A stretch of 64,000 bases of DNA, taken from the NCBI RefSeq assembly GCF_002233755.1, contig NZ_NIFO01000012.1, positions 1 to 64,000 of the forward strand. The letters run 5' to 3'. Of the stretch, positions 1 to 15,125 are shown one piece after another (position 1 is the first letter of the stretch; each line of letters starts with the position of its first letter). The notes beneath the pieces are model-generated. The model had not been told where the DNA came from and searched no databases. It was given only the letters and a program-made list of their open reading frames with translations. Source of the DNA: Acinetobacter piscicola (GTDB lineage: Bacteria; Pseudomonadota; Gammaproteobacteria; Pseudomonadales; Moraxellaceae). Made by a program: the position numbers and the translations under genes.

Positions 1-59
1 AGCGATTTTTATCAAATTTCCAAAATAGTTTACCCACAGTATTTTGGTATCGAACGCAG

Positions 60-431
60 GTGGTCTATCGTTTTTATCGGATTGTGCGTGATGATGTTCA
101 GCAGCGCTATGTGATTCACTTTTATCTGAGCTTTAACCGATCACTCTATTCTGACCCTTTGGGATATTGCAATGAGATCAGAGAGCACTGGATGAGAGCG
201 ACTGGATATTTGGGCACATGCGTTTATCCAGAAATGCATCATCAGCTTTCCGATGCTGATGCACAAAACGCGCTGCGGATTGACCGGATCATGCAAGAAG
301 AAGCGGGCTGTCCTTTGGGTGCATTAAATAGCATGCCGGAGAATCAAACGGGTCAGTTTGGGCTTCCGAGTAGAATCTGCATCTACCCGAAAGGATTTAA
401 ATGGTTTGATGGAGCCCCAGTACGGCGCTGA
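60..431 (+). CDS. Hypothetical protein, possibly 5'-partial
   Basis: I do not recognise this protein. The frame is open to the left edge of the window, so the GTG at 60 may be internal and the real start may lie outside. The 123 visible residues are rich in aromatic and charged residues and show no signal peptide or membrane segment. A different frame (positions 1-114) also reads as plausible protein ending in a hydrophobic stretch and a TGA, so either two genes overlap here or there is a frameshift. It stands at the edge of the accessory block, with a non-coding stretch downstream. Confidence 0.4.
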   Translation: MVYRFYRIVRDDVQQRYVIHFYLSFNRSLYSDPLGYCNEIREHWMRATGYLGTCVYPEMHHQLSDADAQNALRIDRIMQEEAGCPLGALNSMPENQTGQFGLPSRICIYPKGFKWFDGAPVRR

Positions 432-579
432 AAATTCATATTGCATTCCAGCACTTGCTTGACGCTCTACACCGTGCAGATTATCCTTAGCCTGCTGACC
501 TACATCGTCAGCGGGTTTTAGCAGACCCATTAACAAAGACAATATGCGAAATCTGATTTTGCATGTTGTGGACCCGTTC

Positions 580-626
580 GTCCCCCTTTCTTTGCGGTAG
601 GGCGGAGGGGGGACGCGCTTGCGCGT
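580..626. repeat. Two abutting GC-rich inverted repeats
   Basis: Positions 580-587 pair with 606-614 (one bulged G), and 613-626 is the perfect palindrome ACGCGC-TT-GCGCGT. The base composition is far from the AT-rich surroundings. It could be a transcript end, a small structured RNA or a remnant of a mobile element; there is no T-run directly after it. Confidence 0.5.
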
Positions 627-725
627 GCTGGTTTCTTTGTTACCAGTCTGCTAACCCTTCTTCGTTCTGCCACCATCATATTAGCAGTGAATTGGCAGAA
701 TTCTTTTAAAACAAAGGAGTACGCC

Positions 726-791
726 ATGCGCTTACATCAATATCATCCCTTATTTTTCTCTTTTTCAGTATTTGTGCCGATGGGTCATTAG
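726..791 (+). CDS. Possible 21-residue small protein with a strong ribosome site
   Basis: An ATG at 726 follows AAAGGAG (713-719) at a spacing of six bases, which is close to an ideal ribosome binding site. The frame runs 21 codons to a TAG at 789. The peptide begins MRLHQYHPLF and has a hydrophobic phenylalanine-rich middle, so it could insert in a membrane or act as a leader peptide. No family is recognised; the support is the ribosome site and start geometry alone. Confidence 0.4.
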   Translation: MRLHQYHPLFFSFSVFVPMGH

Positions 792-971
792 GCCCGCGTG
801 CTGTGCATAGCTGTGTTTATAGCTTTTTAAGAATAAAACTTTTTCAAATACATATTACCGATATGAAGATGAATCTCTAATGCTGTTTTGAGCTAAGTAG
901 ATCTGTACGCTTTATCGTCTATAAAAAATTCAAAACTTAGATATTCATTCCAACAAAGATTGCATGGGGGA

Positions 972-995
972 CACCGGATCTGCTGAAGACCGGTG
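972..995 (+). promoter_or_regulatory. Hairpin in the leader of the 1015 gene
   Basis: CACCGG (972-977) pairs with CCGGTG (990-995); the flanking GCAT (962-965) and ATGC (997-1000) can extend the stem. It ends about 20 bases before the start codon at 1015 and could influence translation or be the end of an upstream transcript. Confidence 0.35.
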
Positions 996-1014
996 ATGCC
1001 TGTAAAAAGAGAAA

Positions 1015-1281
1015 ATGACTATGTTAAAAACTTTCCTAAAAACTGCCCTGATTTCATCACTTCTTGCAGGCGCGTCATGGGCGCAGGCAGGCTGGTTTGC
1101 GCAAGCCAGTGAATCCTATTTTGTGCAGGCTCGAAATTTAGGTGGAGGCGTGTATCAGTGCATGTATAAAACCAATCCGGGCAACCGCGGCTGGCGTAAT
1201 TTCACGGTGAACTTTCAGGGCGGCTGTCCGCGCGTTGTCCACTATAACGCCAATAATGGCCAAGTCTCTGTACCGAACTAA
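1015..1281 (+). CDS. Small secreted hypothetical protein
   Basis: 88 residues. The N terminus has basic residues, a hydrophobic core and an A-x-A type site (about residues 23-26), as expected of a Sec signal peptide, so the mature protein of about 60 residues should be periplasmic or secreted. The mature part is rich in Gly, Asn and aromatic residues and has two cysteines (CMY and GGCP) that could form one disulfide. I recognise no family. It is followed 17 bases later by a second small envelope gene and then a lipoprotein gene, so the three probably form one operon. Confidence 0.6.
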   Translation: MTMLKTFLKTALISSLLAGASWAQAGWFAQASESYFVQARNLGGGVYQCMYKTNPGNRGWRNFTVNFQGGCPRVVHYNANNGQVSVPN

Positions 1282-1298
1282 AGTACAGGAGATTTGAG

Positions 1299-1865
1299 AT
1301 GAACCAAAAAACCATTTTGGGTTTGGCAGCTATTCTGGCTTTGACGCTTATTATCGTATCCGGATTCTATTTTTTCAGTGCCAATTCCAGCGTTCAGAAA
1401 CCTGTGCAAACTGCAGCTGGCACGAGTGATATTCCAGCGTCAGAAGCTGCTGCTTCGGAAGGCATTCCTGCTGCGGAAGTTGATGGCATTGATGTAGAGG
1501 AATTGACTGCTGGCAGCAAGGGCTCAAGTTCGGCGCAGCATGAACCTGAATTGCTGAGCTTTGAGTTTGATCAAAATTTGAAAGCTGCAGATACCTTGCT
1601 GTCCATGCTTCCTTATGCAGACCTGCCTGAATTTGAGCAAAAAAATATAGACAAGTATCAGCAGCTGGTTTTTGCCAAAGCTGCGAAAGATACGGGTAAA
1701 CCCGTGAGCGGCTTTAGCTTGCAGGAACACGGCGCATTAGAGTCAGAGCAGGCGGGCAACCGTTACTACGTTTATAAATTTGATAATGGTACAGATTGTG
1801 AAATTCATCTGGTCAGTATTGATTTAGAGACCGGTGATTACGGCGTCAGCTACAACTACTGCTGA
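1299..1865 (+). CDS. Membrane-anchored hypothetical protein
   Basis: 188 residues with one N-terminal membrane segment (about residues 8-27), then a low-complexity Ala/Ser/Glu linker (about 35-85) and a soluble C-terminal part with two cysteines. The likely topology is an inner-membrane anchor with a periplasmic domain. The ATG follows GGAG at a good spacing. No family is recognised. Its position between a secreted protein and a lipoprotein gene suggests a common envelope role, but this is inference. Confidence 0.6.
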   Translation: MNQKTILGLAAILALTLIIVSGFYFFSANSSVQKPVQTAAGTSDIPASEAAASEGIPAAEVDGIDVEELTAGSKGSSSAQHEPELLSFEFDQNLKAADTLLSMLPYADLPEFEQKNIDKYQQLVFAKAAKDTGKPVSGFSLQEHGALESEQAGNRYYVYKFDNGTDCEIHLVSIDLETGDYGVSYNYC

Positions 1866-1876
1866 GGATGATTGCT

Positions 1877-2257
1877 ATGAATAAATATTTTAAATCGATC
1901 CTGCTGGCAGTAACGGCTGCTGCAGGCATGATGCTGTACGGGTGCGACTCCAGCCTTGATCCCAATACTTTTAGTGTTGAAATGAATGTAGAAGATACCA
2001 GCAACTGGTATGCACAAAACCAAGTGGCGCATGTCATCACCATTCGTTCCAACAGCCCAGATCCCATCGATGTCACCAACGTTTTAATCAACAATGGTGA
2101 ATGCAGTTATGAAGGCTACCGCAGATCACTGGAATACCCGCAGCATTTTAAAATGGGCTTGCGTTTAAGGCTGAAATTAACCGGCTGCGGTTACGATAAT
2201 GTTGTGCGTGTTGATGTTGAAACACAGCAGGGAACAGCGAGCTACAGCTTTAACTAA
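1877..2257 (+). CDS. Putative lipoprotein
   Basis: 126 residues from the ATG at 1877, which is preceded by GAGG at a better spacing than the ATG at 1868. The N terminus has a lysine, a hydrophobic core and a lipobox LYGC (about residues 20-23), so it should be lipidated by Lgt and cut by LspA. The remaining domain is beta-rich in appearance, has two cysteines and resembles no family I can name. It is the last gene of the three-gene envelope cluster and is followed by a hairpin with a T-run. Confidence 0.6.
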   Translation: MNKYFKSILLAVTAAAGMMLYGCDSSLDPNTFSVEMNVEDTSNWYAQNQVAHVITIRSNSPDPIDVTNVLINNGECSYEGYRRSLEYPQHFKMGLRLRLKLTGCGYDNVVRVDVETQQGTASYSFN

Positions 2258-2292
2258 GCGTATTTAATCTAAACATTAATCTAGAACTGACT

Positions 2293-2324
2293 AAACCGTG
2301 TCCTAAAGGGATGCGGTTTTTTTA
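2293..2324 (+). terminator. Hairpin terminator with T-run and ATGCC boundary
   Basis: An ACCGTGTCC...GGGATGCGGT stem with a short A-rich loop is followed by seven T and ATGCC. It ends the lipoprotein transcript. The same T-run-ATGCC boundary recurs before the next two genes of this block. Confidence 0.6.
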
Positions 2325-2372
2325 TGCCTTCACTTTAGCTTTTGTCAGGGTACATCTGACAAGGAATATACC

Positions 2373-2678
2373 GTGTCCATCATTCAATGTCCCTACTGCA
2401 AGTCGGGCAATGTCAGACAAACCGCATCTGGCAAATCAAACGCAAATTACTTTGAACAGCTTCAGCGCAATATCTCACCTGCACAAATGGCTGTGCTGGG
2501 AGCAAGACTTGCTAAGAAGGTCGGCTTTTCACCTGCGGCAGGTGCTGCTGTAGGTGTAGTGATTGGCGGTGTGCTGGTGGTTGTCAGCCAATTCTGCTAC
2601 GAAAAATATTATCGCAATGAAGATCAATATATTTGTCAGGACTGTCAGCAGCATTTTGTTTGGGTCAAAAAATCATAA
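2373..2678 (+). CDS. Zinc-ribbon protein with a central hydrophobic helix
   Basis: 101 residues from a GTG start preceded by AAGGA. There is a CPYC pair at the N terminus (residues 6-9) and a CQDC pair near the C terminus, the usual layout of a split zinc ribbon. Between them is a Gly/Ala/Val-rich stretch (about 55-75) that could cross the membrane. Such small proteins are found near plasmid and island genes, but no precise function is known to me. It precedes the DUF932 gene by 74 bases and may be cotranscribed with it. Confidence 0.6.
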   Translation: MSIIQCPYCKSGNVRQTASGKSNANYFEQLQRNISPAQMAVLGARLAKKVGFSPAAGAAVGVVIGGVLVVVSQFCYEKYYRNEDQYICQDCQQHFVWVKKS

Positions 2679-2752
2679 AGCTCAAGCCACAAACCTTAAA
2701 CACATTTAATCAACAACATGAATTTCAACATACATTTATAGGAAATATAAAC

Positions 2753-3787
2753 ATGGCGCATCAAATTGAACAAATGGCTTATGTCGGTGACACCCCTTGG
2801 CATGGCCTCGGCAACCAGCTTACGCATAATCAGCCGATTGAAGTATGGGCACAGCAGGCCGGCATGGACTGGCGCATTGAATCTTCTGATGTCAGCTATA
2901 TGGCGCAAAATGAACGCGGGCAAAACATCATCATGCCTTATGAAGAACAGCGCGTACTTTATCGCTCGGATACCCATGCACCTCTATCGGTGGTCAGTCA
3001 GCGTTATCAGGAAGTGCAGCCTGCAGAGGTGTTGGAGTTCTACCGAGATTTAACAGAGCAATCAGGCTTTGAACTGGAAACCGCAGGCGTATTGAAAGGC
3101 GGAAAGAAATTCTGGGCTTTAGCCAGAACAGGACAAAGCGCGGCACTCAAAGGTAAAGATGTTAGTAATGGCTATATATTGTTGGCAACGGGCTGTGACG
3201 GAACGCTGGCGACCACAGCGCAATTTACTTCAATCCGCGTAGTGTGCAACAACACTTTAGCCATTGCCCTAAAAGGACAGAACAGCAGTGCAGGCGTGGT
3301 CAAAGTCCCACACAGTACCCGTTTTGATGCAGATAAGATCAAACAGCAGTTGGGAATCTCAGTACGGCAATGGGATGAACACATGTATGAAATGAAGCAA
3401 CTCAGTCAACGTAAAGTCACTCAACAAGAAGCGGCTGCTTATTTTGACGCGGTATTTAACAATACCAGCCTCAGTCCAATGCAGCAGGATGAAGGCATTA
3501 TCCAGTTCTACCGCAATGTAGCCAGTAAATCACAAAGCAAAGACAAGGTTGAACCGAATGGCCGAGCCATGTCGAAAGTCATGACTATGTTTAACGGGCA
3601 TGGCCGAGGGGCAGAACTCAGCTCAGCCAAAGATACGGCTTATGGGTTGCTGTGCAGTATCACGGAATTTGCAGATCATGAACGTCGAGCCATGAGTCAG
3701 GATCACCGGCTGGATTCAGCATGGTTTGGAGCAGGGGCAGGCTTAAAACAACGTGGACTGGAACAGGCGCTACTGATGTTGTCCTAA
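2753..3787 (+). CDS. DUF932 domain protein (phage/plasmid-like TIGR03299 type)
   Basis: 344 residues from the ATG at 2753 (MAHQIEQMAY). The opening with GDTPWHGLG and the long middle region match the DUF932 family of proteins found on phages, plasmids and integrative elements. Their biochemical role is not established; they commonly sit beside recombination and single-strand-annealing genes, which fits the YqaJ-type exonuclease downstream. Length is normal for the family. The first 40 codons of the longer open frame overlap the preceding gene and are not used here. I am confident of the family, not of a function. Confidence 0.8.
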   Translation: MAHQIEQMAYVGDTPWHGLGNQLTHNQPIEVWAQQAGMDWRIESSDVSYMAQNERGQNIIMPYEEQRVLYRSDTHAPLSVVSQRYQEVQPAEVLEFYRDLTEQSGFELETAGVLKGGKKFWALARTGQSAALKGKDVSNGYILLATGCDGTLATTAQFTSIRVVCNNTLAIALKGQNSSAGVVKVPHSTRFDADKIKQQLGISVRQWDEHMYEMKQLSQRKVTQQEAAAYFDAVFNNTSLSPMQQDEGIIQFYRNVASKSQSKDKVEPNGRAMSKVMTMFNGHGRGAELSSAKDTAYGLLCSITEFADHERRAMSQDHRLDSAWFGAGAGLKQRGLEQALLMLS

Positions 3788-3884
3788 TCTGTGTATTTAC
3801 AATTATTTGAACACTTCTTATTGAAATCCTGATTTCTAAGCTCCACTAACTATTTGCAAGATAAATAGTAAAACGGAGAGTACA

Positions 3885-4100
3885 GTGAGTATCATTTCAA
3901 TTAAGAAATTAGGGGATGAAAGTTTTTTATTAAAAATGAAAGATAAGAAATCTTTCGATGTTTTAGTAGAAACGATAAAAGGTAATTTTGGCTATTCCTT
4001 TAATCAAGGTCTTCAATTAAATGCAGACATTTTAGAAATTGTAATAGCTGGCGTTTCTGAAGAAAACCTAAAGCGCCATTTAGCAGTCGTCTCATTTTAA
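3885..4100 (+). CDS. Small hypothetical protein
   Basis: 71 residues, GTG start with GGAG upstream. It is acidic/basic mixed with no cysteines, signal peptide or membrane segment, and predicted mostly helical. It lies between the DUF932 gene and the exonuclease gene and is ended by its own hairpin terminator, so it may be expressed as a separate unit. No family is recognised. Confidence 0.55.
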   Translation: MSIISIKKLGDESFLLKMKDKKSFDVLVETIKGNFGYSFNQGLQLNADILEIVIAGVSEENLKRHLAVVSF

Positions 4101-4124
4101 AATAGATTCATTTAGAAATATCAG

Positions 4125-4150
4125 ACCATATCTTCGGATGTGGTTTTTTT
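4125..4150 (+). terminator. UUCG-loop terminator with ATGCC boundary
   Basis: ACCATATC (4125-4132), loop TTCG, GATGTGGT (4137-4144), then a run of seven T and ATGCC. A UUCG tetraloop with a T-run is a strong intrinsic terminator. It lies before the exonuclease gene. Confidence 0.75.
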
Positions 4151-4181
4151 ATGCCAAAAATTTAAAATTGAGGAATTCACA

Positions 4182-5225
4182 ATGAATAATTTATCAAATC
4201 CATCTGCAGCATCTAAACAACCTATAGGATTCAGGTCACCTAAACTTATTACCGCCAAACGCTTTGTAGAAACCAAAAATATGAGCCAAGCCGAATGGCT
4301 GGAAGTACGCAGGCAAGGTATCGGCAGCAGTGACTGTGCTGCAGCTTGCGGACTCAATCCTTATATGTCGATGCTGGAACTGTGGATGATCAAAACAGGT
4401 AGGATCAAGCAATCCATCGAAGATGAAAGCGAAGGCCATGCGCCTTTATATTGGGGCAAGCGACTTGAACCGCTTGTTGCTGAATACTACAGCATGCATA
4501 CCAACTATAAAGTCCGCCGCGTGAATGCTGTGCTGCAGCATCCTGACCCAGACAAGCATTTCATGTTAGCTAACTTAGATTATTCCGTAGTGGGTGATGC
4601 AGATGTGCAGATTCTGGAATGCAAAACTGCTGGTGAACATGGCGCCAAGCTGTGGCGGGATGGTGTGCCGTTATATGTGCTGTGTCAGGTACAGCATCAA
4701 TTGGCCGTAACGGGAAAGAAAGCAGCGCATATCTGTGTACTGCTCTGCGGACATGAAACGCGGATTTTTAAAGTGACCCGCAGTGAATCGGTCATTCAGC
4801 ATATTGTGAATGCAGAACGTTACTTCTGGGAATGTGTCGAGAAGGATACACCGCCTGATGCAGATGCCAGCGCATCGGCAGCCAAGGCTTTACAGCAGCT
4901 GTATCCCGAACATGTGCCATTGAGCACTGCAGACTTATCTGGGGATGAGCAGGCCAACCAGCAGTTTGAACAGCTGATTCAGGCACGTAATCAAATCGAC
5001 AAGCATCAGGAGCAGTTTGATCTGCTGAAGCACCAGCTGCAAGCCAAGATGCAGCAGGCGGAGCGTGCCACTTTTAAAGCAGGCTCAGTGACGTGGAAAA
5101 AGGCTAAGGATTCAATCAGCTTAGATGCCAAGGCTTTGCTGAAATCACACCCTGAATACCTCAGCCAATTCCCGCAAAGTAAAACAGGTTCACGGCGTTT
5201 TAACATCTATACCAATGATGGTTGA
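4182..5225 (+). CDS. YqaJ-family phage-type recombinase exonuclease
   Basis: 347 residues from the ATG at 4182, which follows GAGG; the open frame starts 14 codons earlier inside the terminator. Residues about 40-200 carry the YqaJ/lambda-exonuclease fold: the WLEVRRQGIGSSD start motif, a conserved acidic region with D in 'ANLDYSV', and ECK in 'ILECKT', which supplies metal-binding Glu/Lys of the PD-(D/E)XK core. Known members resect DNA 5' to 3' for single-strand annealing. The C-terminal 90 residues form a helical extension that may be coiled coil. No annealing protein (RecT/Bet) is visible next to it. Confidence 0.85.
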   Translation: MNNLSNPSAASKQPIGFRSPKLITAKRFVETKNMSQAEWLEVRRQGIGSSDCAAACGLNPYMSMLELWMIKTGRIKQSIEDESEGHAPLYWGKRLEPLVAEYYSMHTNYKVRRVNAVLQHPDPDKHFMLANLDYSVVGDADVQILECKTAGEHGAKLWRDGVPLYVLCQVQHQLAVTGKKAAHICVLLCGHETRIFKVTRSESVIQHIVNAERYFWECVEKDTPPDADASASAAKALQQLYPEHVPLSTADLSGDEQANQQFEQLIQARNQIDKHQEQFDLLKHQLQAKMQQAERATFKAGSVTWKKAKDSISLDAKALLKSHPEYLSQFPQSKTGSRRFNIYTNDG

Positions 5226-5263
5226 AAGTAATTTAGCCTAAGCAAAATATCCAACCAGCCTAG

Positions 5264-5294
5264 AAATCCCATGCCTCAGCACATGGGATTTTTT
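5264..5294 (+). terminator. Intrinsic terminator with ATGCC boundary
   Basis: AAATCCCATG (5264-5273) pairs perfectly with CATGGGATTT (5282-5291), followed by T residues and ATGCC. It closes the exonuclease transcript. Confidence 0.75.
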
Positions 5295-5352
5295 ATGCCC
5301 ATTTCATTTTTAATCAATACAGCAATTTATTTAAAGATAAGAGGAAAGGACC

Positions 5353-6246
5353 ATGATTAAAGGTCTAGCAATCACACCGCCAATACTTGGCAGAATCAGT
5401 ATCGGCAAAGTTGTGGAAAAGAACGGCAAACGTCTGCCTGAAAAGGATGATCAATTTACCATTACCAGCCAAATCCAAAATAAGGACAGTGGTTGGGTGA
5501 AGCACCCACTGGATGAACAGCTGCGGGCCAAAGCACCCAATCAAAAACTGCGAAGCATACCCGTCCGGATGATCTTCAATGATCCTGAACTGAATCTAAG
5601 GGCAGAGTACAGTCTATTTGATCGACAAACAGGGCGCCCCGTGTGTATAGGCAATGGTGAAACTTGTCAGCGCTTAACCAATCAAGGGGTTGAACATCAC
5701 CCCTGTCCTTCACCTGATCTATGTCCATTGGCACAAGGTAGATTGTGTAAGCCCTATGGTCGTCTGTATGTGAATCTTGATGAATCGGATGAGTTTGGGA
5801 CTTTCGTTTTTAGAACAACAGGCTTTAACAGCATTCGAACCTTGGCAGCGAGACTGAGTTATTACCATGCAGCATCGAATGGTTTATTGTCATGTCTGCC
5901 TTTACAGTTAACACTTCGAGGAAAGTCCACCACACAAAGCTATCGAACCCCAGTCTATTACGTGGATTTGACGTTACGTGAGGGTGTTCATTTACAAGAG
6001 GCGATTCAAACGGCGAAAGAGATTGATCAGAAAAGTAAGCTGTGTGGATTTAATCAGGCAGCTTTAGATCAGATGGCACGGCAAGGCTATGGCAATACAC
6101 GGTTTGAAGTAGATGTAGAGGAGGGATTGGATAAAATTGAAGAGTTTTACCCAGAAGAAAATAAATCACAGCAACAAGTTCCAGACTTTCTTCAGATGCA
6201 AGATATTCAGAAAGGCCTACAGCAATCGGTACAAGCTTTGAACTAA
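5353..6246 (+). CDS. 'Hydrolase or metal-binding' protein, recombination-directionality-factor-like
   Basis: 297 residues, ATG preceded by GAGGAAAGGA. The opening (IKGLAITPPILGRISIG) and a cysteine-rich stretch (residues about 98-136, with CIGNGETC, CPSPDLC and GRLC) match a conserved family on integrative elements of Pseudomonas and Acinetobacter that is annotated either as a metal-binding hydrolase or as a recombination directionality factor. The cysteines probably bind zinc. The FRTTGFNSIRTL block follows. Its neighbours (DUF932, YqaJ exonuclease) are the usual companions, so a role in DNA recombination or element mobility is inferred. Confidence 0.75.
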   Translation: MIKGLAITPPILGRISIGKVVEKNGKRLPEKDDQFTITSQIQNKDSGWVKHPLDEQLRAKAPNQKLRSIPVRMIFNDPELNLRAEYSLFDRQTGRPVCIGNGETCQRLTNQGVEHHPCPSPDLCPLAQGRLCKPYGRLYVNLDESDEFGTFVFRTTGFNSIRTLAARLSYYHAASNGLLSCLPLQLTLRGKSTTQSYRTPVYYVDLTLREGVHLQEAIQTAKEIDQKSKLCGFNQAALDQMARQGYGNTRFEVDVEEGLDKIEEFYPEENKSQQQVPDFLQMQDIQKGLQQSVQALN

Positions 6247-6271
6247 AGTAGGAGGCATCTGTTGATGCCTT
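6246..6271 (+). terminator. Hairpin after the metal-binding protein gene
   Basis: AGGCATC-TGTT-GATGCCT forms a tight seven-pair hairpin just after the stop codon, followed by a T-rich stretch. It is probably a transcript end and again contains GATGCC. Confidence 0.55.
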
Positions 6272-6384
6272 GTATTTTAAATTTTCTTAATCTATAAATG
6301 TAAGATTAAGCTTATGTACGTTAAAAGATATTCTAAAAAAGATTTAAAATTTTGAATATTATAATTTATTTAGATGGGGGTTTT

Positions 6385-9003
6385 ATGGTTCGGGTGGAAT
6401 ATTTAAATTTTTTACAGACTTTGAATAATACTGACTCTGTAGAGATACGTAAGATAGCAAACCTTGTTTTAGAAAATTTGGATGAGTTAATTCCATTAAA
6501 GACTGCTCAGGGGCAACGGATAAAAAAAATAGTATCGTTTGCTCAGTTAAAATGGGAACGTGTTGGTTCAGAAATCAGTCCTTTACCTGCGACATTGGGA
6601 GAGCCGAAAGCGAAAATTGCAAAAATTAAAAGTATGACTGTAGGCCCATTTCGAGGATTTTCTAAACCAGAGCATTTTGATTTAGATAGTAACTTAGTAT
6701 TGATATATGGTCCTAATGGAACAGGAAAATCAAGTTTTTGTGAGGCTTTAGAATACTGCTTATTAGGTAATGTCGAAGATGCTGAAAATAAACGTTTCCG
6801 TAACCAAGTTGAGTATCTAAAGAATGCTCATGTTAATCGATTCTTAGCACCTATTCTTCAGGCTGAAGATAGCCAAAATAACATCTTAAGTGTTCAGCCT
6901 GATGAGCAAATATATAGATTCTGTTTTGTTGAAAAGAATCGTATAGATAATTTTTCACGTATTGCAGCCCAAGTTCCATCTAAACAAACAGAACTAATTT
7001 CTACGTTATTTGGATTAGAGTCTTTCACGGAGTTTGTCAAAAATTTTACTCCTGATATGGATGGTAGATATATTGATATTATTGGAGAAAAGTCTAAAGA
7101 GCTTGGTGAAAAGCGTTCACAATTATTAGGTAGTGAACAACAGATTAAAATACACACGCAACTGCTAAGCGACATTCAATCAGAGGAGATAAATTTAGCT
7201 ACTCGATATAAAGAGAATATAAGTTTTGATCAAATGGTAATTGAGCTAAATGGTAATGAAGCTGTCTCAGGGCGTGTACAAATACTTGAAACATATCTTC
7301 AGTCGCCTTTAGGTACTAAAAGTAACCTTTCTCAAAGTGTATTAAATGCATTAAAGCAGAAAATAACTGAGTTGCATTCAGCTTTAATAATTGAAGAGGG
7401 GAAACTAGCACAAGCAAGTTATCAGGTCTCATTTAAACAACTTTATAATGCAATTATTGAATTACAGGATGGTAATCCAAATCAGTGTCCAGCTTGTCAA
7501 ACACCCCTAGGTCAGACTACTGTTAATCCTTATATTTATGCTAGAGATGAGTTGTTGAAGTTGCAAGAGTTGGCAGGTATACAGAATAAAATTCAATTTT
7601 TACAAAAGCAAATCCAAGATTCCTTAACAGCTCTTTCTCAGATTATCCAAACTTGTTTATCTTTTTATCAAAAAGAAAATTGCTTGGAGGCATATAGATC
7701 ATTTACAAGCGAAAAAACATCTTCTGAGTGGTGGGGGTACTTAACAGAAATGCTACCTGATGGTACAACCATTTGGATGAATATTGAGGTGCAAGTTCAA
7801 GCTCTTGAGGCATGTGATCTAAAAATAAAACAAGAAGAAGAGGTGAGAGTAATTAAGGCTAAAGAGCTTTTGATGTGTCGTGATTTTGTAAAAGAAATAA
7901 CTATACTTCAAACACGTAGACAATCAGCGACTCAGGCTATAAGTATCGCTCAGTCCATGATTAGTACATTTGAAGAACAAAATGAGCAGCTTATTACAGA
8001 TGTTGAAACTGAAAAATTAATAGTTAGTCGAAATAAGATTATATCCAACGCTTATGCTGACTTTGTTAAAAAGTTGGAAACATACTGCAATGAATTACCT
8101 CTGCGTTTAGTTAAAGATTTAGGAGGAGTGATTATTGATCTTTACAATGCTTTTAATCGAAACGATACGGATAGTGAATTGCTAGCAGAAGTAAGACTAC
8201 CAATAAACCAGAATCAGAGAATGGAAATTGCATTTAAAAGCAATCCAGAAGTTTTTTTTGATGCGCTGCATATACTTAGTGAGGGGCATATTCGATGTTT
8301 AGGACTAGCAATTTTATTGGCTAAAAATCTTAAAGAAGAGTCACCATTATTGATTTTTGATGACCCTGTTAATGCCATAGATGATGAACATCGTGAAGCA
8401 ATCCGAAAAACACTCTTTGAAGATAAGTTCTTTGCTAATAAGCAAATATTATTAACTTGCCATGGGGAAGAATTCTTCAAAGATATTCACAATCTACTTT
8501 CAGTGGAACGAGTGAAGTTAACAAAATCATTTAGTTTTCTACCAAGATTGGGTGAGCCGCATATCAATATTAATTTTAATTGTGCACCTCGTAATTATAT
8601 TGTTGCTGCTAGAGAGCACATTAATCAAAATGAAATTCGTGATGCTTTAACAAAGTCAAGACAAGCTTTAGAAGCAATAACTAAAGGGAAAGTTTGGAAG
8701 TATGTAAGTAAGCATGGTGATGGAAATTTGAGTTTAAAATTACGATCTGCTACCTCTTCAATAGAGTTAAGAAATCTTACTGAACAATTGAAAACTAGAA
8801 TTGAAAAAAAAGATTTTGTTCATGCTCAAAAAGAAAGTGTTTTTAAACCATTAGAAGCTTTGTTAGGGATTAGCGGGGAGTGTCGAGAATGGAGATATCT
8901 TAATAAGGGAGTTCATGAAGAGCAGGATCGAGTAGAGTTCGATAGAAGCGTAGTGAGTTCGATAGTTTTGAATTTAGAAAATTTGGATCAAGCTTTGAAG
9001 TAA
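6385..9003 (+). CDS. Rad50/SMC-like ATPase with zinc hook and possible HEPN-like C terminus
   Basis: 872 residues from the ATG at 6385, which follows GGGGG. A helical N-terminal region (1-80) precedes an ABC-type ATPase: Walker A GPNGTGKS (about 109-116), a signature-like LSEGHIRCL (about 631), Walker B LLIFDDP (about 653-659), D-loop NAIDDEH and H-loop CHGEEF. Long coiled-coil-like segments flank CPAC (368-371), the Rad50 zinc-hook motif. A C-terminal domain (about 710-872) holds ALTKSRQALE and R837-x6-H844 (RYLNKGVH), which fits the Rx4-6H motif of HEPN ribonucleases, though this is only a motif match. The family is close to single-gene AAA ATPases found in defence islands. It could also be a DNA-repair ATPase. 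Codon use is AT-rich compared with the genes before it. Confidence 0.75.
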   Translation: MVRVEYLNFLQTLNNTDSVEIRKIANLVLENLDELIPLKTAQGQRIKKIVSFAQLKWERVGSEISPLPATLGEPKAKIAKIKSMTVGPFRGFSKPEHFDLDSNLVLIYGPNGTGKSSFCEALEYCLLGNVEDAENKRFRNQVEYLKNAHVNRFLAPILQAEDSQNNILSVQPDEQIYRFCFVEKNRIDNFSRIAAQVPSKQTELISTLFGLESFTEFVKNFTPDMDGRYIDIIGEKSKELGEKRSQLLGSEQQIKIHTQLLSDIQSEEINLATRYKENISFDQMVIELNGNEAVSGRVQILETYLQSPLGTKSNLSQSVLNALKQKITELHSALIIEEGKLAQASYQVSFKQLYNAIIELQDGNPNQCPACQTPLGQTTVNPYIYARDELLKLQELAGIQNKIQFLQKQIQDSLTALSQIIQTCLSFYQKENCLEAYRSFTSEKTSSEWWGYLTEMLPDGTTIWMNIEVQVQALEACDLKIKQEEEVRVIKAKELLMCRDFVKEITILQTRRQSATQAISIAQSMISTFEEQNEQLITDVETEKLIVSRNKIISNAYADFVKKLETYCNELPLRLVKDLGGVIIDLYNAFNRNDTDSELLAEVRLPINQNQRMEIAFKSNPEVFFDALHILSEGHIRCLGLAILLAKNLKEESPLLIFDDPVNAIDDEHREAIRKTLFEDKFFANKQILLTCHGEEFFKDIHNLLSVERVKLTKSFSFLPRLGEPHININFNCAPRNYIVAAREHINQNEIRDALTKSRQALEAITKGKVWKYVSKHGDGNLSLKLRSATSSIELRNLTEQLKTRIEKKDFVHAQKESVFKPLEALLGISGECREWRYLNKGVHEEQDRVEFDRSVVSSIVLNLENLDQALK

Positions 9004-9028
9004 ATTTATATTTTTAGACTTTCTAGGG

Positions 9029-9051
9029 GGGCTAATTTTTTTAGCCCTTTT
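9029..9051 (+). terminator. Intrinsic terminator after the ATPase gene
   Basis: GGGCTAA (9029-9035) pairs with TTAGCCC (9041-9047) and is followed by TTTT. It separates the ATPase gene from the arsenic operon. Confidence 0.7.
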
Positions 9052-9072
9052 ATAAAAATATACGGAGTTGCA

Positions 9073-9110
9073 TATATATGTTTATTCGTATATAAGTATA
9101 TATAAAGATT
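9073..9110 (+). promoter_or_regulatory. AT-rich dyad region upstream of arsC
   Basis: The stretch between the terminator and the arsC start is built of repeated ATATA/TATAT steps with imperfect dyad symmetry around a TTTATTCG core. It resembles the AT-rich dyad before arsR and is the likely promoter/operator of the operon; the exact boxes cannot be fixed by eye. Confidence 0.4.
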
Positions 9111-9127
9111 CAATTGAGTTTGAGCAA

Positions 9128-9562
9128 ATGACTGCTATTCCAAAAGTTAAGATTTATCACAACCCTGAATGTGGTACATCACGCAATACGTTGGCGTTAA
9201 TTCGTAATGCCAACATTGAACCTGAAGTGATCGAATATCTTAAAAATCCTCCATCTAAAAGTGAGCTCATTCAGCTGATTGCGGATGCAGGTTTAACTGT
9301 GAGAGAGGCCATCCGTAAGAATGTTGATCCTTATCGTGATCTAGAGTTAGACCTTGAGGTTTGGAGGGATGAGAAACTGCTTAACTTTATGCTTCAGTAT
9401 CCAATTTTGATTAACCGCCCATTCGTGGTGACTGAACTAGGAACTCGTTTAAGTCGCCCGTCAGAACTGGTTTTAGAAATTCTGCCACTCCCACAAAAAG
9501 GTGCATTTAGCAAAGAAGACGGTGAACAAGTGCTGGATGCAAATGGGCAGCGATTGAAATAA
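9128..9562 (+). CDS. arsC: Arsenate reductase, glutaredoxin-coupled type
   Basis: 144 residues from the ATG at 9128; an upstream in-frame ATG at 9068 lies in the AT-rich promoter region and is unlikely. The family reduces arsenate to arsenite using glutathione and glutaredoxin. The catalytic Cys15 sits in HNPECGTSR, and the anion-binding arginines are present in the INRPFV and LGTRLSRP segments. The length matches the R773-type ArsC family. It is the first gene of the arsenic operon and stands upstream of arsR, which is an unusual order. A second, unrelated arsenate reductase follows two genes later. Confidence 0.93.
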   Translation: MTAIPKVKIYHNPECGTSRNTLALIRNANIEPEVIEYLKNPPSKSELIQLIADAGLTVREAIRKNVDPYRDLELDLEVWRDEKLLNFMLQYPILINRPFVVTELGTRLSRPSELVLEILPLPQKGAFSKEDGEQVLDANGQRLK

Positions 9563-9569
9563 AAATTTC

Positions 9570-9599
9570 ATGGATATATGTGAATATTGATATATCCAT
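9570..9599 (+). promoter_or_regulatory. Candidate ArsR operator
   Basis: ATGGATATAT (9570-9579) and ATATATCCAT (9590-9599) form a perfect 10-base inverted repeat with a 10-base spacer, one helical turn between arms. It lies between the arsC stop and the arsR start, where ArsR repressors commonly bind AT-rich dyads. It lacks a T-run, so a terminator is less likely. Confidence 0.55.
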
Positions 9600-9620
9600 A
9601 TGTTTGAGTGAGTAAAAAAT

Positions 9621-9941
9621 ATGGATCAAATCAATTTCTTTAAATGCTTAGCTGATGATACGCGATTCAATATCGTGATGTTGGTTCTTGGAAATAATGA
9701 ACAGTGTGTTTGCGATTTGACTGAAAAATTAGAGTTGAGCCAACCCAAGATTTCACGGCATTTAGCCTTATTACGCTCTTCTGGTCTTTTACAAGATCGA
9801 CGTCAAGGGCAATGGGTCTATTACAGTCTCAATCCCAATTTACCCACTTGGTGTATAGACGTACTTAACACCCTTAAAAATGCTGATTTACAGCCAAAAG
9901 TTGCTCCATCATTTCAACAAATCAATAGTTATTGCGAGTAG
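9621..9941 (+). CDS. arsR: ArsR-family arsenite-responsive repressor
   Basis: 106 residues with a winged helix-turn-helix (LSQPKISRHLALLRSSGLL, recognition helix about 41-60). The pair Cys29 and Cys31 in the CVCDL motif is the classical arsenite site at the end of helix 3. Binding of As(III) or Sb(III) releases the protein from DNA. It should repress its own operon, probably through the dyad at 9570-9599. It is followed six bases later by the second arsenate reductase gene. Confidence 0.93.
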   Translation: MDQINFFKCLADDTRFNIVMLVLGNNEQCVCDLTEKLELSQPKISRHLALLRSSGLLQDRRQGQWVYYSLNPNLPTWCIDVLNTLKNADLQPKVAPSFQQINSYCE

Positions 9942-9947
9942 AACAAT

Positions 9948-10421
9948 ATGAAATTCCTTTTTTTGTGTACTGGAAATAGTTGTCGTAGCATCCTGTCAGA
10001 AGTGCTGTTTAATAGTCGTGCCCCAGAGGGTTGGAAAGCATACAGTGCAGGTAGTAAGCCATCAGGGCAAGTACATCCATTGACCATTGAAACATTAGAA
10101 AATTTGGGTCTTTCAACAGATGGTTTGTGGAGTAAAACCATTGATGATTGTGAACAATATCAACCTGACGTGGTGATTACGGTTTGTGATTCGGCAGCGC
10201 AAGAAGCGTGTCCACTGTATTTAGGCGGAGCAATCAAGGCACATTGGGGCTTGGCTGATCCTTCGCATTTAGACTTGCCGAAAGAAGAGAAGCTCAAAGC
10301 ATTCCAAGTGACTGTAGACCATGTCAATCGTCGTTTAGATGCATTGTTGGCACTCGATACAGCGCACATGTCTCGTCCTGAATTGATTGCTGCAATCAAT
10401 CACATCTCAGATATTGAATGA
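9948..10421 (+). CDS. arsC2: Arsenate reductase, thioredoxin-coupled (LMW phosphatase fold)
   Basis: 157 residues of the low-molecular-weight tyrosine-phosphatase fold. The P-loop is C7-T-G-N-S-C12-R13-S and the redox relay Cys80 and Cys88 lie in [12 protein letters not shown], matching pI258-type ArsC that passes a disulfide to thioredoxin. The general-acid Asp is in LADPSH. With a dedicated thioredoxin reductase gene in the same operon, the electron path NADPH-TrxB-thioredoxin-ArsC is likely. The gene name is my label for the second reductase. Confidence 0.92.
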
Positions 10422-10428
10422 GAACATC

Positions 10429-11472
10429 ATGGCTCAACAAAGACTGTCATTTTTAGATCGTAACCTCACGCTATGGATTTTCATTGCGATGGGGTTGGGA
10501 ATTGCGATCGGTGTGTTCTTTCCACAAGCCTCAGTGGCATTGGATAAAATGAGTGTGGATTCCGTCAATATTCCAATTGCGATTGGTTTGATTCTGATGA
10601 TGTATCCACCATTAGCTAAAGTGGATTATGCCGCGCTACCACAAGTGTTTAAAGACAAAAAAACCTTAACTTTGTCTTTGGTACAGAACTGGGTGATAGC
10701 ACCAGTATTAATGTTTGCATTAGCCATTATTTTTCTACATAGCTATCCTGAATACATGACAGGCTTGATTTTGATTGGTTTAGCGCGCTGTATCGCCATG
10801 GTCTTGGTGTGGAATGGTTTGGCCTGTGGGGATAATCAATATGTTGCTGCATTGGTGGCCTTTAACAGTATCTTCCAGATCTTATTCTTCAGTACTTATG
10901 CTTGGCTATTCTTAACCTTCTTGCCACCTTATTTTGGTGTTGCAGGGCAAGTGATCAATGTCGATTTCTGGACCATTACCCATGCGGTACTGGTGTACTT
11001 AGGGATTCCATTTTTCCTTGGCTTTATGACGCGATTCACTCTAGTGAAAGCTAAAGGTCTGGATTGGTATCAAAATGTCTTCTTACCTAAGATTAGTCCA
11101 CTGAGTCTACTGGCTTTATTGTTCACGATTGTGGCGATGTTTAGCCTGAAAGGGAACGATGTGGTGAGCTTACCGATGGATGTCTTGCGTATTGCGATCC
11201 CATTGACCATTTACTTTATCGTGATGTTCTTCATCAGCTTCTTCATGAGCAAATGGATGGGGAACGATTATCCTAAAACCACAGCAATTTCTTTTACTGC
11301 TGCGGGAAATAACTTTGAATTGGCGCTGGCCGTCGCGATTGCGACCTTTGGTTTAGCTTCACCAGTCGCATTTACCACGGTAATCGGCCCATTGGTTGAA
11401 GTACCAGTGTTAATTGCTTTAGTCAGTGTGTCTTTGTGGCTCAGAAAAAAGTTTTTTAAAGCAGAGGTGTAA
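10429..11472 (+). CDS. acr3: ACR3-family arsenite efflux permease
   Basis: 347 residues from the ATG at 10429, eight bases after the previous stop; a longer frame that starts at 10387 overlaps the preceding gene. About ten hydrophobic segments are visible. The signature [13 protein letters not shown] (about residues 115-127) contains the cysteine essential for arsenite transport in ACR3 proteins, and the later [14 protein letters not shown] block is also typical. It exports arsenite across the inner membrane using the proton motive force. It replaces ArsB in this operon. Confidence 0.95.
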
Positions 11473-11477
11473 TTTCT

Positions 11478-12182
11478 ATGACTCTCCCAAATGTAGATAT
11501 GAATCTTTTGGATCAACCGACTTTAGAAAAGGTACAAGCTAAAGAATTGGATCATCCACCCCGTATTTTGCTGCTGTATGGTTCTAACCGTGAGCGTTCA
11601 TACAGCCGATTGGCGGTGATGGAAGCTGGTCGTATCTTGGAGCAGTTTGGTGCCGAAGTAAAAATCTTTCATCCTAAAGGGCTGCCTTTACCTGAAGATG
11701 CGGACACTGAACATCCAAAGGTTAAAGAGTTGCATGATTTACTCGCTTGGGCAGAAGGAATGGTGTGGTGCTCGCCTGAGCGTCATGGCTCCATGAGTTC
11801 AATCTTTAAATCGCAAATAGATTGGATTCCACTGGCAGGCGGTGCAATTCGTGCAACCCAAGGTAAGACTTTGGCTTTGATGCAGGTCAGTGGTGGTTCA
11901 CAGTCTTTTAACAGCTTAAACCAGATGCGTATTTTAGGCCGTTGGATGCGGATGATCACCATTCCAAACCAATCGTCTATTCCCAAAGCTTTTTTAGAGT
12001 TTGAAGAAGATGGACGGATGAAACCTTCATCCTTCTATGATCGAATTGTCGATGTAATGGAAGAACTATATAAGTTCACCTTGCTCACTCGTGGGCAGAG
12101 TCAGTACCTCACGGACCGTTATTCAGAGCGAAAAGAGTCGGCAGAAGAATTATCTAAGCGTGTCAATCAACGTAGCTTATAA
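11478..12182 (+). CDS. arsH: ArsH NADPH-dependent FMN organoarsenical oxidase
   Basis: 234 residues with the flavodoxin-like fold of the NADPH:FMN reductase family. The phosphate loop [11 protein letters not shown] (about 35-45) and the [18 protein letters not shown] block are characteristic of ArsH. The family oxidises trivalent organoarsenicals to less toxic pentavalent forms. It starts five bases after the acr3 stop and belongs to the same operon. Confidence 0.93.
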
Positions 12183-12193
12183 ACTTTAGGTGA

Positions 12194-13153
<960 letters not shown>

Positions 13154-13189
13154 AAGGCTCATTTAAACGCTTGAAAATTTTATAAAATA

Positions 13190-13219
13190 CGCCCAGTCTG
13201 TTGAGTAGACTGGGCGTTA
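13190..13219 (+). terminator. Strong terminator after trxB
   Basis: CGCCCAGTCT (13190-13199) pairs perfectly with AGACTGGGCG (13207-13216) around a seven-base loop, followed by TTATTTTG. It ends the main arsenic operon and separates it from the monooxygenase gene. Confidence 0.85.
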
Positions 13220-13254
13220 TTTTGATTATGACTATAAATAATGGGAGAGAAGCT

Positions 13255-14328
13255 TTGACTCAATTACAAACTGAAGTCGATGTAATCATTATTGGTGGTG
13301 GTCAGGCAGCCCTTGCCACAGCTTATTTCCTCAAACGTAAGAAAATTCCATTTATTATTTTAGATGACCAATCTCAGGCAGGTGGTGCATGGTCACATGC
13401 TTGGGAATCTCTTCGTCTTTTTTCTCCAAATACTTGGAGTTCATTGTCAGGTTGGATGATGCCCACAACTGAGCAGACTTACCCAACGCGAAATGAAGTG
13501 ATTGGCTACTTGTCAGCATACGAGCAACGATATCAATTTCCAATTATTCGACCAATTCATGTCGACCATATAGAACAAAAAGATGGCTATTTAGATGTGT
13601 ATGCTGGCGATCAATATTGGCGAGCTAAAGCGGTGGTCAGTGCTACTGGGACATGGAGTCAGCCTTATATTCCCCATTATGAAGGATATGAACGATTTGA
13701 AGGATTACAAACGCATTCAGCACATTATGTAAATCCAGAGCCTTTTATCAACAAGAAAGTGATTGTAGTTGGTGGTGGTAACTCAGGGGCACAAATTCTT
13801 GCCGAAGTCTCAAAAGTTGCAGATACCACTTGGGTCACAGTAACACCACCTCAATTTTTATCGGATGATGTTGATGGGCGTGTTTTATTTCTTCGGGCAA
13901 CTGAACGTTTAAAAGCCCAACAGGAAGGTCGTGTGATTGATCAACCCGTTGGTGGTCTGGGTGATATTGTCATGATAGACAGTGTCAAAGAGGCCCGCGA
14001 ACGTGGCGTACTACATAGTAGAGAGCCTTTTACCTCATTTGAGGAGCATTCCGTTGTTTGGGCTGATGGTACAAGACAAGCAGTAGATGCTGTGATTTGG
14101 TGTACAGGGTTCAAAGCTTCATTGACTCACTTAAGAAGTCTTGATGTGGTAGAGCCTGATCAGACAGTTACTGTGAATGATGGGCGCTCAGTAAAAATAA
14201 ATAACCTTTGGTTGGTTGGCTATGGGGAATGGACAGGCATGGCATCCGCAACACTCATTGGGGTTTCTAGAACAGCAAGAGCAACTGTAGATCAAATAGC
14301 TGCTTATTTGGCTAGGATCAATTACTAA
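13255..14328 (+). CDS. ArsO-like flavin-dependent monooxygenase
   Basis: 357 residues from a TTG at 13255 that follows GGGAGAG at five bases; an ATG at 13228 in the same frame lacks a ribosome site, and the frame's first TTG at 13201 lies inside the terminator. It has the FAD loop [10 protein letters not shown], a second Rossmann loop [12 protein letters not shown] and the WCTGF motif of class B flavin monooxygenases. Proteins of this kind (ArsO, a putative flavin-binding monooxygenase) often close arsenic operons. The exact substrate is unknown. Its stop codon directly abuts a helicase fragment. Confidence 0.8.
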
Positions 14329-14339
14329 AGTTAAGGACT

Positions 14340-14850
14340 GAAGGAACTATTGGTCAAGTGATAGATCATTTAAAGACTACAAAACGGCCATTACCACCAG
14401 ATCGAATAATTAGAAGGGAGGAGGAGCTTCTTTCATTTATAGATACACCTAAAGAGGAATGGTCTTCAACACTACAACGTTATAATAAATTAAGAGAAAT
14501 CGAATATAAGGAAGTTATCGAGGTTACAAGGTTTATTGAAAAACAGACTCCTTTTGCAACGCAGCATAGTGTAAAGGGGGCTGAGTTTGAGAATGTATTA
14601 GTGGTCTTAGGTGGTGGCTGGAATCACTATAAGTGGCCACAGCTTTTAGAGTTACTTGAGACTAAAAAATTGACTAAAGCAAATACGAAAGGTTTTTTAT
14701 AGAGCACGTAATCTTTTTTATGTTTCCATTTCTTGCCCAATGACGAGGCTAGCTGTGTTAGCTACTCAAACACTATCTGATACAGCTCTTGTAACTGTGA
14801 ATAATCTATTGGGGAGTGAAAATATTGAAGATTTATGTTTTGATACATAA
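14340..14850 (+). pseudogene. 3' fragment of a UvrD-like helicase with a frameshift
   Basis: The frame from about 14340 reads EGTIGQVIDHLKTTKRP and continues to HSVKGAEFENVLVVLGGG, the motif V region of UvrD-type helicases. It stops at 14700. One frame over, from about 14697, the text continues RARNLFYVSIS and LATQTLSDTAL to a stop at 14850, the usual helicase C terminus. A run of six T at 14694-14699 holds one T too many, which explains the frameshift. The N-terminal two thirds, including Walker A, are absent. It is a relic and cannot be active. Confidence 0.75.
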
Positions 14851-15125
14851 AAATAAAGTTTACTCCAAATTTACACCTTAACTTAATTTTTTTATTTTAA
14901 GTTGCTGTAAATTAATGGATTATTTTATCTTGTTGTCCAATCCATCATAGGCGCAACGGATATACGTGGGAGCTTTGATATATCTACGTTTTTTTTCAAA
15001 TCAGTCATTTAGACACCTATGAATAATTGCAACTTTCATGCACATTTAGCAACTTTCTAGTGTTTATTGTATATAACTGCAACTATACTGCTACTAAATT
15101 ATTTCATAAAAAAAATAGTAGCAAA
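14851..15125. other. AT-rich stretch between helicase relic and integrase
   Basis: No gene is visible. GATATA...TATATC with flanking AACG/ACGTT (about 14957-14992) could form an imperfect hairpin. An integrase usually lies close to its attachment site, so the element end may be here, but no direct repeat could be confirmed by eye. Confidence 0.3.

Follow-up and report, generated by a model that had tools for sequence, protein, structure and literature searches.

The stretch of Acinetobacter piscicola DNA analysed here (contig NZ_NIFO01000012.1, 64,000 bp; hereafter the window) carries, at positions 6385..9003 of the forward strand, a gene for a Rad50-like ATPase with a zinc hook and a C-terminal domain that models as HEPN-like (872 amino acids (aa), ATG at 6385, stop codon at 9003). 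All window features given below lie on the same strand. A reading made from the sequence alone (the sequence-only reading) had described the product as a Rad50/SMC-type ATPase split by coiled coils and ending in a candidate effector domain, and the motifs that it listed were all found at the residues assigned to them. These were Walker A GPNGTGKS (residues 109–116; 6709..6732), the CPAC zinc-hook motif (368–371; 7486..7497), the ATP-binding cassette (ABC) signature LSEGH (631–635; 8275..8289), Walker B LLIFDDP (655–661; 8347..8367), LTCH (690–693) with the switch histidine H693 (8461..8463), and RYLNKGVH (837–844). According to the secondary structure of the model, a helical N-terminal extension (residues ~1–78; 6385..6618) lies ahead of the ATPase lobe.

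The assignment of the head was borne out by both profile and fold searches. In Pfam, SMC_N (64.7 bits, best stretch 81–710) and AAA_23 (40.5 bits, 89–331) scored above cut-off. The full-length AlphaFold2 model, built from an alignment of 52 rows (mean predicted local distance difference test (pLDDT) 86.3, predicted template modelling score (pTM) 0.63), contained a coiled-coil insert (residues 235–576; 7087..8112) with long helices at 235–275, 382–427, 463–532 and 534–576, two ATPase lobes on either side and the CPAC turn between. The best Foldseek match of this model was Rad50 (E-value = 2.1 × 10−10). The VIA search gave a Z-score of 20.1 to 9bi4_D (root-mean-square deviation (rmsd) 5.0, 385 aligned residues), and among the matches listed the Rad50, cohesin SMC and RecF chains had Z-scores of 17.7–20.1 and covered at most residues 76–746.

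Relatives were collected from plasmids by tblastn (29 records, 24 with coverage of at least 80%), from a GTDB scan (at least 302 relatives confirmed, the best 80 retained) and from IMG/VR (19 loci). An open reading frame (ORF) match was obtained at 113 loci, of which 25 were excluded (7 partial or broken, 12 identical duplicates and 6 distant), so that the conservation counts rest on 88 rows forming 66 clusters at 80% identity. Residues invariant in all 66 clusters included K115, C368, C371, S632, E633, G634, D659, D660 and H693 in the ATPase and hook, and R759, E763, W771, W836, N840, G842 and H844 in the C-terminal domain. Conservation exceeds what chance would leave, because full-length homologues at 27–58% identity retain the ATPase, hook and C-terminal motifs, with the exception of R837. 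Since the collection scan was made with ATPase peptides, the invariance of the C-terminal residues was not built into the sampling.

The C-terminal helical domain (residues ~731–872; 8575..9000) was delimited from the structure model and fold searches. The AlphaFold2 model of a 158-residue C-terminal domain consisted of six helices (pLDDT 84.9, pTM 0.79). The first three Foldseek matches were 1o3u, 2hsb and 2q00 (E-value 0.14–0.43, probability 0.91–0.97), of which 1o3u and 2hsb are named HEPN in their entries; 2q00 (SsR10), like Csm6, is a HEPN protein. Places 1–9 of the VIA search were occupied by HEPN-named, Csm6 or SsR10 chains, sacsin HEPN included (4nqf, Z 10.1, rmsd 3.4, 113 aligned residues; Csm6, Z 9.3; 2hsb, Z 9.2). 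The scores were moderate and one superfamily topped both fold searches; the domain thus models as HEPN-like, in line with the earlier proposal of an ATPase joined to a HEPN-like effector.

Two invariant segments were found in this domain, namely R759-x3-E763 (8659..8673) and W836-x3-N840-x-G842-x-H844 (8890..8916), the latter being a candidate HEPN active-site segment. The sequence-only reading had pointed to R837-x6-H844, and this motif fails under the refuting condition given there: H844 was invariant, but position 837, inside the conserved segment, was occupied by R in only 21/66 clusters, by T in 15, by G in 7 and by other residues in the remainder. The arginine of the HEPN Rx4-6H motif was thus present at H−7 in 21/66 clusters, the window protein itself (Rx6H) among them, and at H−6 or H−5 in 0/66, and R837-x6-H844 was rejected as the catalytic motif of the family. 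E763, N840 and H844 fit the HEPN pattern of a histidine, a polar residue just before it and an upstream acidic residue, and may be equivalent to the HEPN residues. The spacer between E763 and H844 was 71–92 residues, with 80 in 38/66 clusters. When the 66 C-terminal domains were compared with Pfam, 40 families were matched weakly; DUF5113 (5/66, best E-value 0.00037), DUF4145 (3/66, 0.037) and HEPN PF05168 (1/66, 0.076) were too weak for any to be assigned. A search of the Protein Data Bank (PDB) by sequence with the domain returned unrelated helical chains only (best E-value 0.065). No stand-alone C-terminal domain was found among the three matches in 369 genomes of the class, one of them the window's own (frames of 875–952 aa). 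In viral contigs, a sister clade (L108, L109, L110; loci are denoted by L numbers) encodes proteins of 942–964 aa that share the head and hook of the family and have a longer C-terminal tail; on by-eye reading, R-x3-E and W-x3-N-x3-H are retained in it.

The closest known design is that of RloC. The RloC nuclease is defined by an Arg-X3-Glu-X36-52-His triad, in which R692, E696 and H737 are each required for activity, and mutation of the zinc hook raises the activity (PMC2610378). In RloC as in the window family, coiled coils bearing a CxxC hook (C368 and C371 in 66/66 clusters here) divide the ABC ATPase, the sizes are similar (658–897 aa (PMC2610378) and 872 aa), and the invariant R759-x3-E763...H844 follows the order of R692/E696/H737. 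The earlier statement that no obvious PrrC/RloC nuclease is present therefore needs revision: since the order is that of the RloC/PrrC anticodon-nuclease triad, with R759-x3-E763 as candidate equivalent of its R-x3-E, the protein resembles RloC more closely than had been thought, although the spacer is longer and a profile-level match is lacking. The nuclease domains of PrrC and RloC have been placed in the HEPN superfamily, whose main motif is given as Rx4-6H (PMC3710099).

Meanwhile, several features set the window family apart from RloC. The spacer between E and H is 36–52 residues in the published triad definition (PMC2610378) and 71–92 here; PF13166 (AAA_13) scored 15.9 bits against a gathering cut-off of 36; and an additional N-terminal extension of ~78 aa is present. 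By-eye counts in 22 readable RloC-type sequences gave LS[ED]GE as the signature in 19 and SSLD as the D-loop in 20, whereas the window family has LSEGH and NAID/NSID, respectively. In the PDB copy searched, the RloC profile matched AriA chains only, and the VIA lists contained neither a RloC nor a PrrC structure. Orthology with RloC was not supported by the PF13166 score or by profile–profile comparison, and the ATPase-lobe tree was uninformative at depth. Under the published criteria (spacer, PF13166, no profile-level match of the C terminus), the window protein does not qualify as a RloC; we read it as a protein of the same design, and probably the same chemistry, that belongs to a family of its own. 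Of the 61 distinct RloC-type ORFs gathered, 60 had a CxxC in the middle of the protein, and one subgroup carried R-R-I-[LIV]-E and N-[DE]-G-S-H, which is near the N-x-G-x-H of the window family. Many of the viral contigs L173–L210 encode RloC-type zinc-hook proteins with RRI[LIV]E...W[VI]NDGSH, a second group without the Rx4-6H arginine. PrrC shares R-x3-E...H, the ABC ATPase and a link to type I restriction–modification (R-M), as in L036, L043, L059 and other loci here; in PrrC the zinc-hook insert is missing and the protein is half as large (PMC2610378), and the neighbours of the window family also include type II, IIG and III R-M genes and those of bacteriophage exclusion (BREX).

In the window, the gene is a stand-alone unit between two terminator-like hairpins, as the sequence-only reading had held. 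The upstream hairpin (6252..6271, folding at 6248–6282) had a z-score of −5.4 and the downstream hairpin (9024..9052, folding at 9020–9056) a z-score of −2.6; a pattern scan for terminators picked up only the former, the latter being derived from folding. A longer frame starting with TTG at 6352 is possible, but a GGGGG candidate ribosome-binding site (6376..6380), read from the sequence, is located 4 nt 5' of the ATG at 6385. Upstream (2633..6246) are a DUF932 gene, a small ORF and genes for a YqaJ recombinase and a Gp3-like recombination-directionality factor, in agreement with the phage-type recombination genes noted earlier; this region matched an A. johnsonii plasmid at 99.9%. Downstream (9068..11472), ArsC (Pfam) is followed by ORFs resembling ArsR, arsenate reductase and ACR3, an ars operon on by-eye reading. 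Genes of arsenic-resistance type adjoin members of the family in three hosts (window 9068–11472, L238:9631-13934 and L049 at +3 and +4, the last assigned by similarity to the neighbours in the window).

Gene neighbourhoods were compared at 64 representative loci; ORFs shorter than 90 aa were ignored, and the nearest remaining ORF was taken as the neighbour. At 35 loci, 42 adjacent ORFs were on the same strand with a gap of no more than 150 bp. An R-M or BREX gene was the next ORF in 11/64 loci, in 10 of them within 122 bp: HsdS-type in L020, L043, L051 and L059 (PADLOC) and in L036 (by similarity), BrxL in L024 (PADLOC) and L050 (by similarity), type III Res in L047, type IIG in L086, and annotated type II enzymes in L008 and in L018, where the distance was 845 bp and a small hypothetical gene lay between. 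On its other side, the L036 gene overlaps HsdR by 4 bp. The PrrC gene is located between hsdS and hsdR. Candidate or other defence families were adjacent in five more loci (PDC-S05 in L040, PDC-S39 in L049, SngC in L063, and PDC-S73 in L069 and L075), and an annotated restriction endonuclease was next in the non-representative locus L007. The 123 adjacent ORFs were assessed by a bulk family tally (25 of 199 families listed), and single scans were made of 30 neighbour proteins against PADLOC (from directly adjacent to four genes distant) and of 10 against Pfam. HsdS models matched at least 5 of the 123 adjacent ORFs; for the 88 distal genes from these loci, which served as the control, the count was at least 1. 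The control is weak, since the loci lie in defence-rich regions.

Repair genes were also found beside the gene. SbcD was directly downstream in L024, L050 and L031, and only there among the loci fetched, and no SbcD-like ORF was present in the window; consistent linkage to repair genes would have counted against the sequence-only reading. Defence or mobile surroundings were seen in a good part of the loci. In the BREX-linked L024:9001-12233 and L050:9001-16570, SbcD follows the gene with an overlap of 4 bp and SbcC comes next in L050, giving the order PglZ-BrxL-[window family]-SbcD-SbcC. In L031:7130-9751 and beyond, the SbcD-like ORF stands directly after the gene.

The family is spread on mobile elements and is patchy in its hosts. 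Of the 29 plasmid records, 23 were typed as conjugative. L009 is flanked by conjugation genes annotated as belonging to integrative conjugative elements, and L014 has such neighbours as well; the ORF preceding L014 encodes DUF6602. An identical protein is encoded in an Acinetobacter guillouiae record (L019), which matches window positions 1–14966 at 99.97%. The copy on an A. johnsonii plasmid (L005:12001-14615), at 99.5% identity, has a broken frame with a longest ORF of 560 aa and no listed coding sequence, and is a decayed copy; intact copies occur elsewhere. Identical proteins were found across genera in three sets, namely L014/L091, L088 and L092–L095 (Tistrella, Achromobacter, Pusillimonas, Stenotrophomonas, Pseudomonas), L089, L097 and L098, and L080–L082, pointing to recently spread elements. 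Only 4 of 249 genomes of the same taxonomic family had a match, the window's own included and one match being partial. Hosts were Pseudomonadota and genomes or metagenome-assembled genomes (MAGs) labelled Nitrospirota, Verrucomicrobia, Planctomycetota, Acidobacteria, Cloacimonadota and Bacillota, the MAG labels being open to binning errors. No match was obtained among 50,697 phage records. When 5426 E. coli genomes were searched at the DNA level with the genes of three subgroups, 2, 16 and 1 genomes were matched, which are lower bounds for the family. The E. coli relatives lie at the edge of a prophage (Mu-like on our reading), near an integrase and beside an ars operon, and four E. coli proteins were full-length with R-x3-E and W-x2-L-N-x-G-x-H present. 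In E. coli strain 165 (L236:7296-18136), a lone homologue near prfC is flanked by phage tail genes and, at its opposite end, by a DinI-like gene and a broken SOS-peptidase gene, a typical place for prophage cargo genes. E. coli strain A33 carries a homologue too.

The explanation favoured here, with modest confidence, is that of a single-gene mobile defence protein of the general RloC design, in which a Rad50-like DNA sensor gates a HEPN-like ribonuclease (RNase) in backup abortive infection. The analysis shows the anatomy of the sequence, the invariance of the residues, the HEPN-like model, the mobile spread and the R-M or BREX neighbours in part of the loci. A backup role is proposed because the sensor parts are RloC-like and restriction or BREX genes lie ahead of the gene in part of the loci. 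The protein would act as a dimeric Rad50-like ABC ATPase, its zinc-hooked coiled coil detecting DNA ends or a failed or inhibited partner restriction or BREX system. An ATP-driven rearrangement would then free the C-terminal endoRNase (R759, E763, N840, H844), which would cut cellular RNA, most likely transfer RNA (tRNA), and the halt in translation would abort phage or plasmid invasion. The case for a defence gene is stronger than the sequence-only reading could make it.

Several results weigh against this explanation. The Foldseek E-values for the HEPN matches were 0.14 or worse; in the VIA search, place 11 was taken by a designed minibinder (Z 8.6), followed by unrelated bundles at Z 5–7, and Z-scores below 13 can arise by chance for helical bundles. 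The Rx4-6H arginine is absent from 45/66 clusters. When the C-terminal profile was aligned by hhalign to the C-terminal profiles of two RloC-type groups, the probability was only 3.3% and 0.1%; for the sister clade it was 2.3%. In the 3.3% alignment H844 was paired with the RloC histidine while R759/E763 were not paired with the RloC R-x3-E. PADLOC 2.0 gave no full-length match to any system protein, with 38 families matched. At 48/64 loci no defence gene was identified as the next neighbour, not all neighbours having been scanned singly. Matches to R-M and BREX models were likewise obtained for genes lying more than 5.5 kb from the family member, so the surroundings are defence-rich as a whole, and the enrichment of R-M or BREX adjacency over the island background was weak. 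In the ATPase-lobe tree, all 19 of 19 family members formed one clade (support 76) joined to the PF13166-type L124 and L126; with midpoint rooting, the family and L124/L126 fell inside the RloC-type sequences, next to L119, and were not separated from them, in a tree that had no outgroup, mis-cut C-lobes in L120, L164 and L173 and 12 sequences skipped, and whose deep branching is not interpreted. Confidence was reduced because of the gap of 845 bp in L018, the two of 11 neighbours assigned by similarity only and the failure of the tree to separate the RloC-type sequences.

The trigger is the point at which the favoured explanation divides. In a sub-version of it, the same HEPN RNase output would be set off by phage anti-restriction proteins in place of DNA breaks. 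Such sensing agrees with the position of the gene beside unlike R-M and BREX types and has two precedents: AriA of the phage anti-restriction-induced system (PARIS) senses Ocr and sets off a tRNase (PMC12839542), and PrrC, embedded with hsdMSR, is released once a T4 peptide blocks its R-M partner (PMC3710099). However, the family shares its zinc-hook Rad50 build with RloC, which in Acinetobacter baylyi is activated by DNA breaks without requiring R-M and whose tRNA cleavage is activated and sustained by linear DNA and bound hydrolysed nucleotide (PMC3874168), and many copies, that in the window included, have no adjacent R-M gene. This sub-version is considered unlikely, without being negligible.

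The HEPN-like domain could alternatively be a dimerising or an RNA- or protein-binding module rather than an RNase, and the protein a Rad50-like factor of DNA repair or plasmid maintenance. The Rad50/SMC head, the loss of the Rx4-6H arginine from most members, the recombination genes upstream in the window, the UmuC and S24 peptidase genes adjoining L006, and the SbcD genes that follow the family member in L024, L050 (there together with SbcC) and L031 are consistent with such a role. SbcC/Rad50 itself has the same head, coiled coil and hook, but it lacks a C-terminal effector domain and works with an SbcD/Mre11 partner, which was not found in the 64-kb window. R759, E763, N840 and H844 are invariant and active-site-like, SbcD accompanies just three of the fetched loci and that of L050 has an SbcC of its own, the gene is inserted next to several R-M types and BREX genes, and its spread among genomes of the same taxonomic family is patchy, all of which makes this alternative rather improbable. 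A DNA-targeting SMC-like immunity protein of Lamassu or Wadjet type, blocking or compacting invader DNA with a structural C-terminal domain, is very improbable: LmuB models with an SMC-like head were the best PADLOC matches among those listed (E-value = 3.4 × 10−22) and an LmuACB chain was third in Foldseek with the full model, but the best LmuB stretch (81–143) is confined to the head lobe, and no name of a Lamassu partner occurs among the annotated plasmid neighbours, many of which are hypothetical and for which no LmuA/LmuC search was made.

Among other systems, the favoured explanation comes close to PARIS AriA/AriB, in which an ABC ATPase sensor is tied to an RNase effector as a backup to restriction (PMC12839542); PARIS differs in having two proteins, a TOPRIM effector and an OLD-type ATPase. 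The same domain build is described for the APECO1_4465 group, an ABC ATPase with a C-terminal HEPN found in prophages, and for the ERFG_01251 group (Anantharaman 2013, PMC3710099); the comparison was made by description only, so they may be the same family. DefensePredictor yielded 31 further validated systems, 4 with HEPN and 7 with P-loop NTPase domains (PMC13092281). No description of the present family was recognised in the literature covered, the ABC-ATPase survey of 2020 and the DefensePredictor supplements lying outside it, so an earlier description or validation is possible. The window family extends the known ABC-HEPN theme.

A further-reaching view is proposed tentatively, at somewhat less than even confidence: the family may consist of zinc-hook Rad50-HEPN suicide RNases that form their own lineage and have evolved an R-x3-E and W-x3-N-x3-H active site without the canonical HEPN arginine, serving as a portable last defence in BREX operons and in restriction operons of types I, II, IIG and III, and also alone on conjugative plasmids and prophages. 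If this is true, one protein family would be the backup fuse behind several unlike primary defences, BREX included, and the trigger of the fuse would become testable as DNA ends (the RloC model) versus loss of the primary system (the PrrC/PARIS model). It would also represent a HEPN RNase with its catalytic arginine supplied from a different helix, and one more single-gene defence borne by conjugative plasmids.

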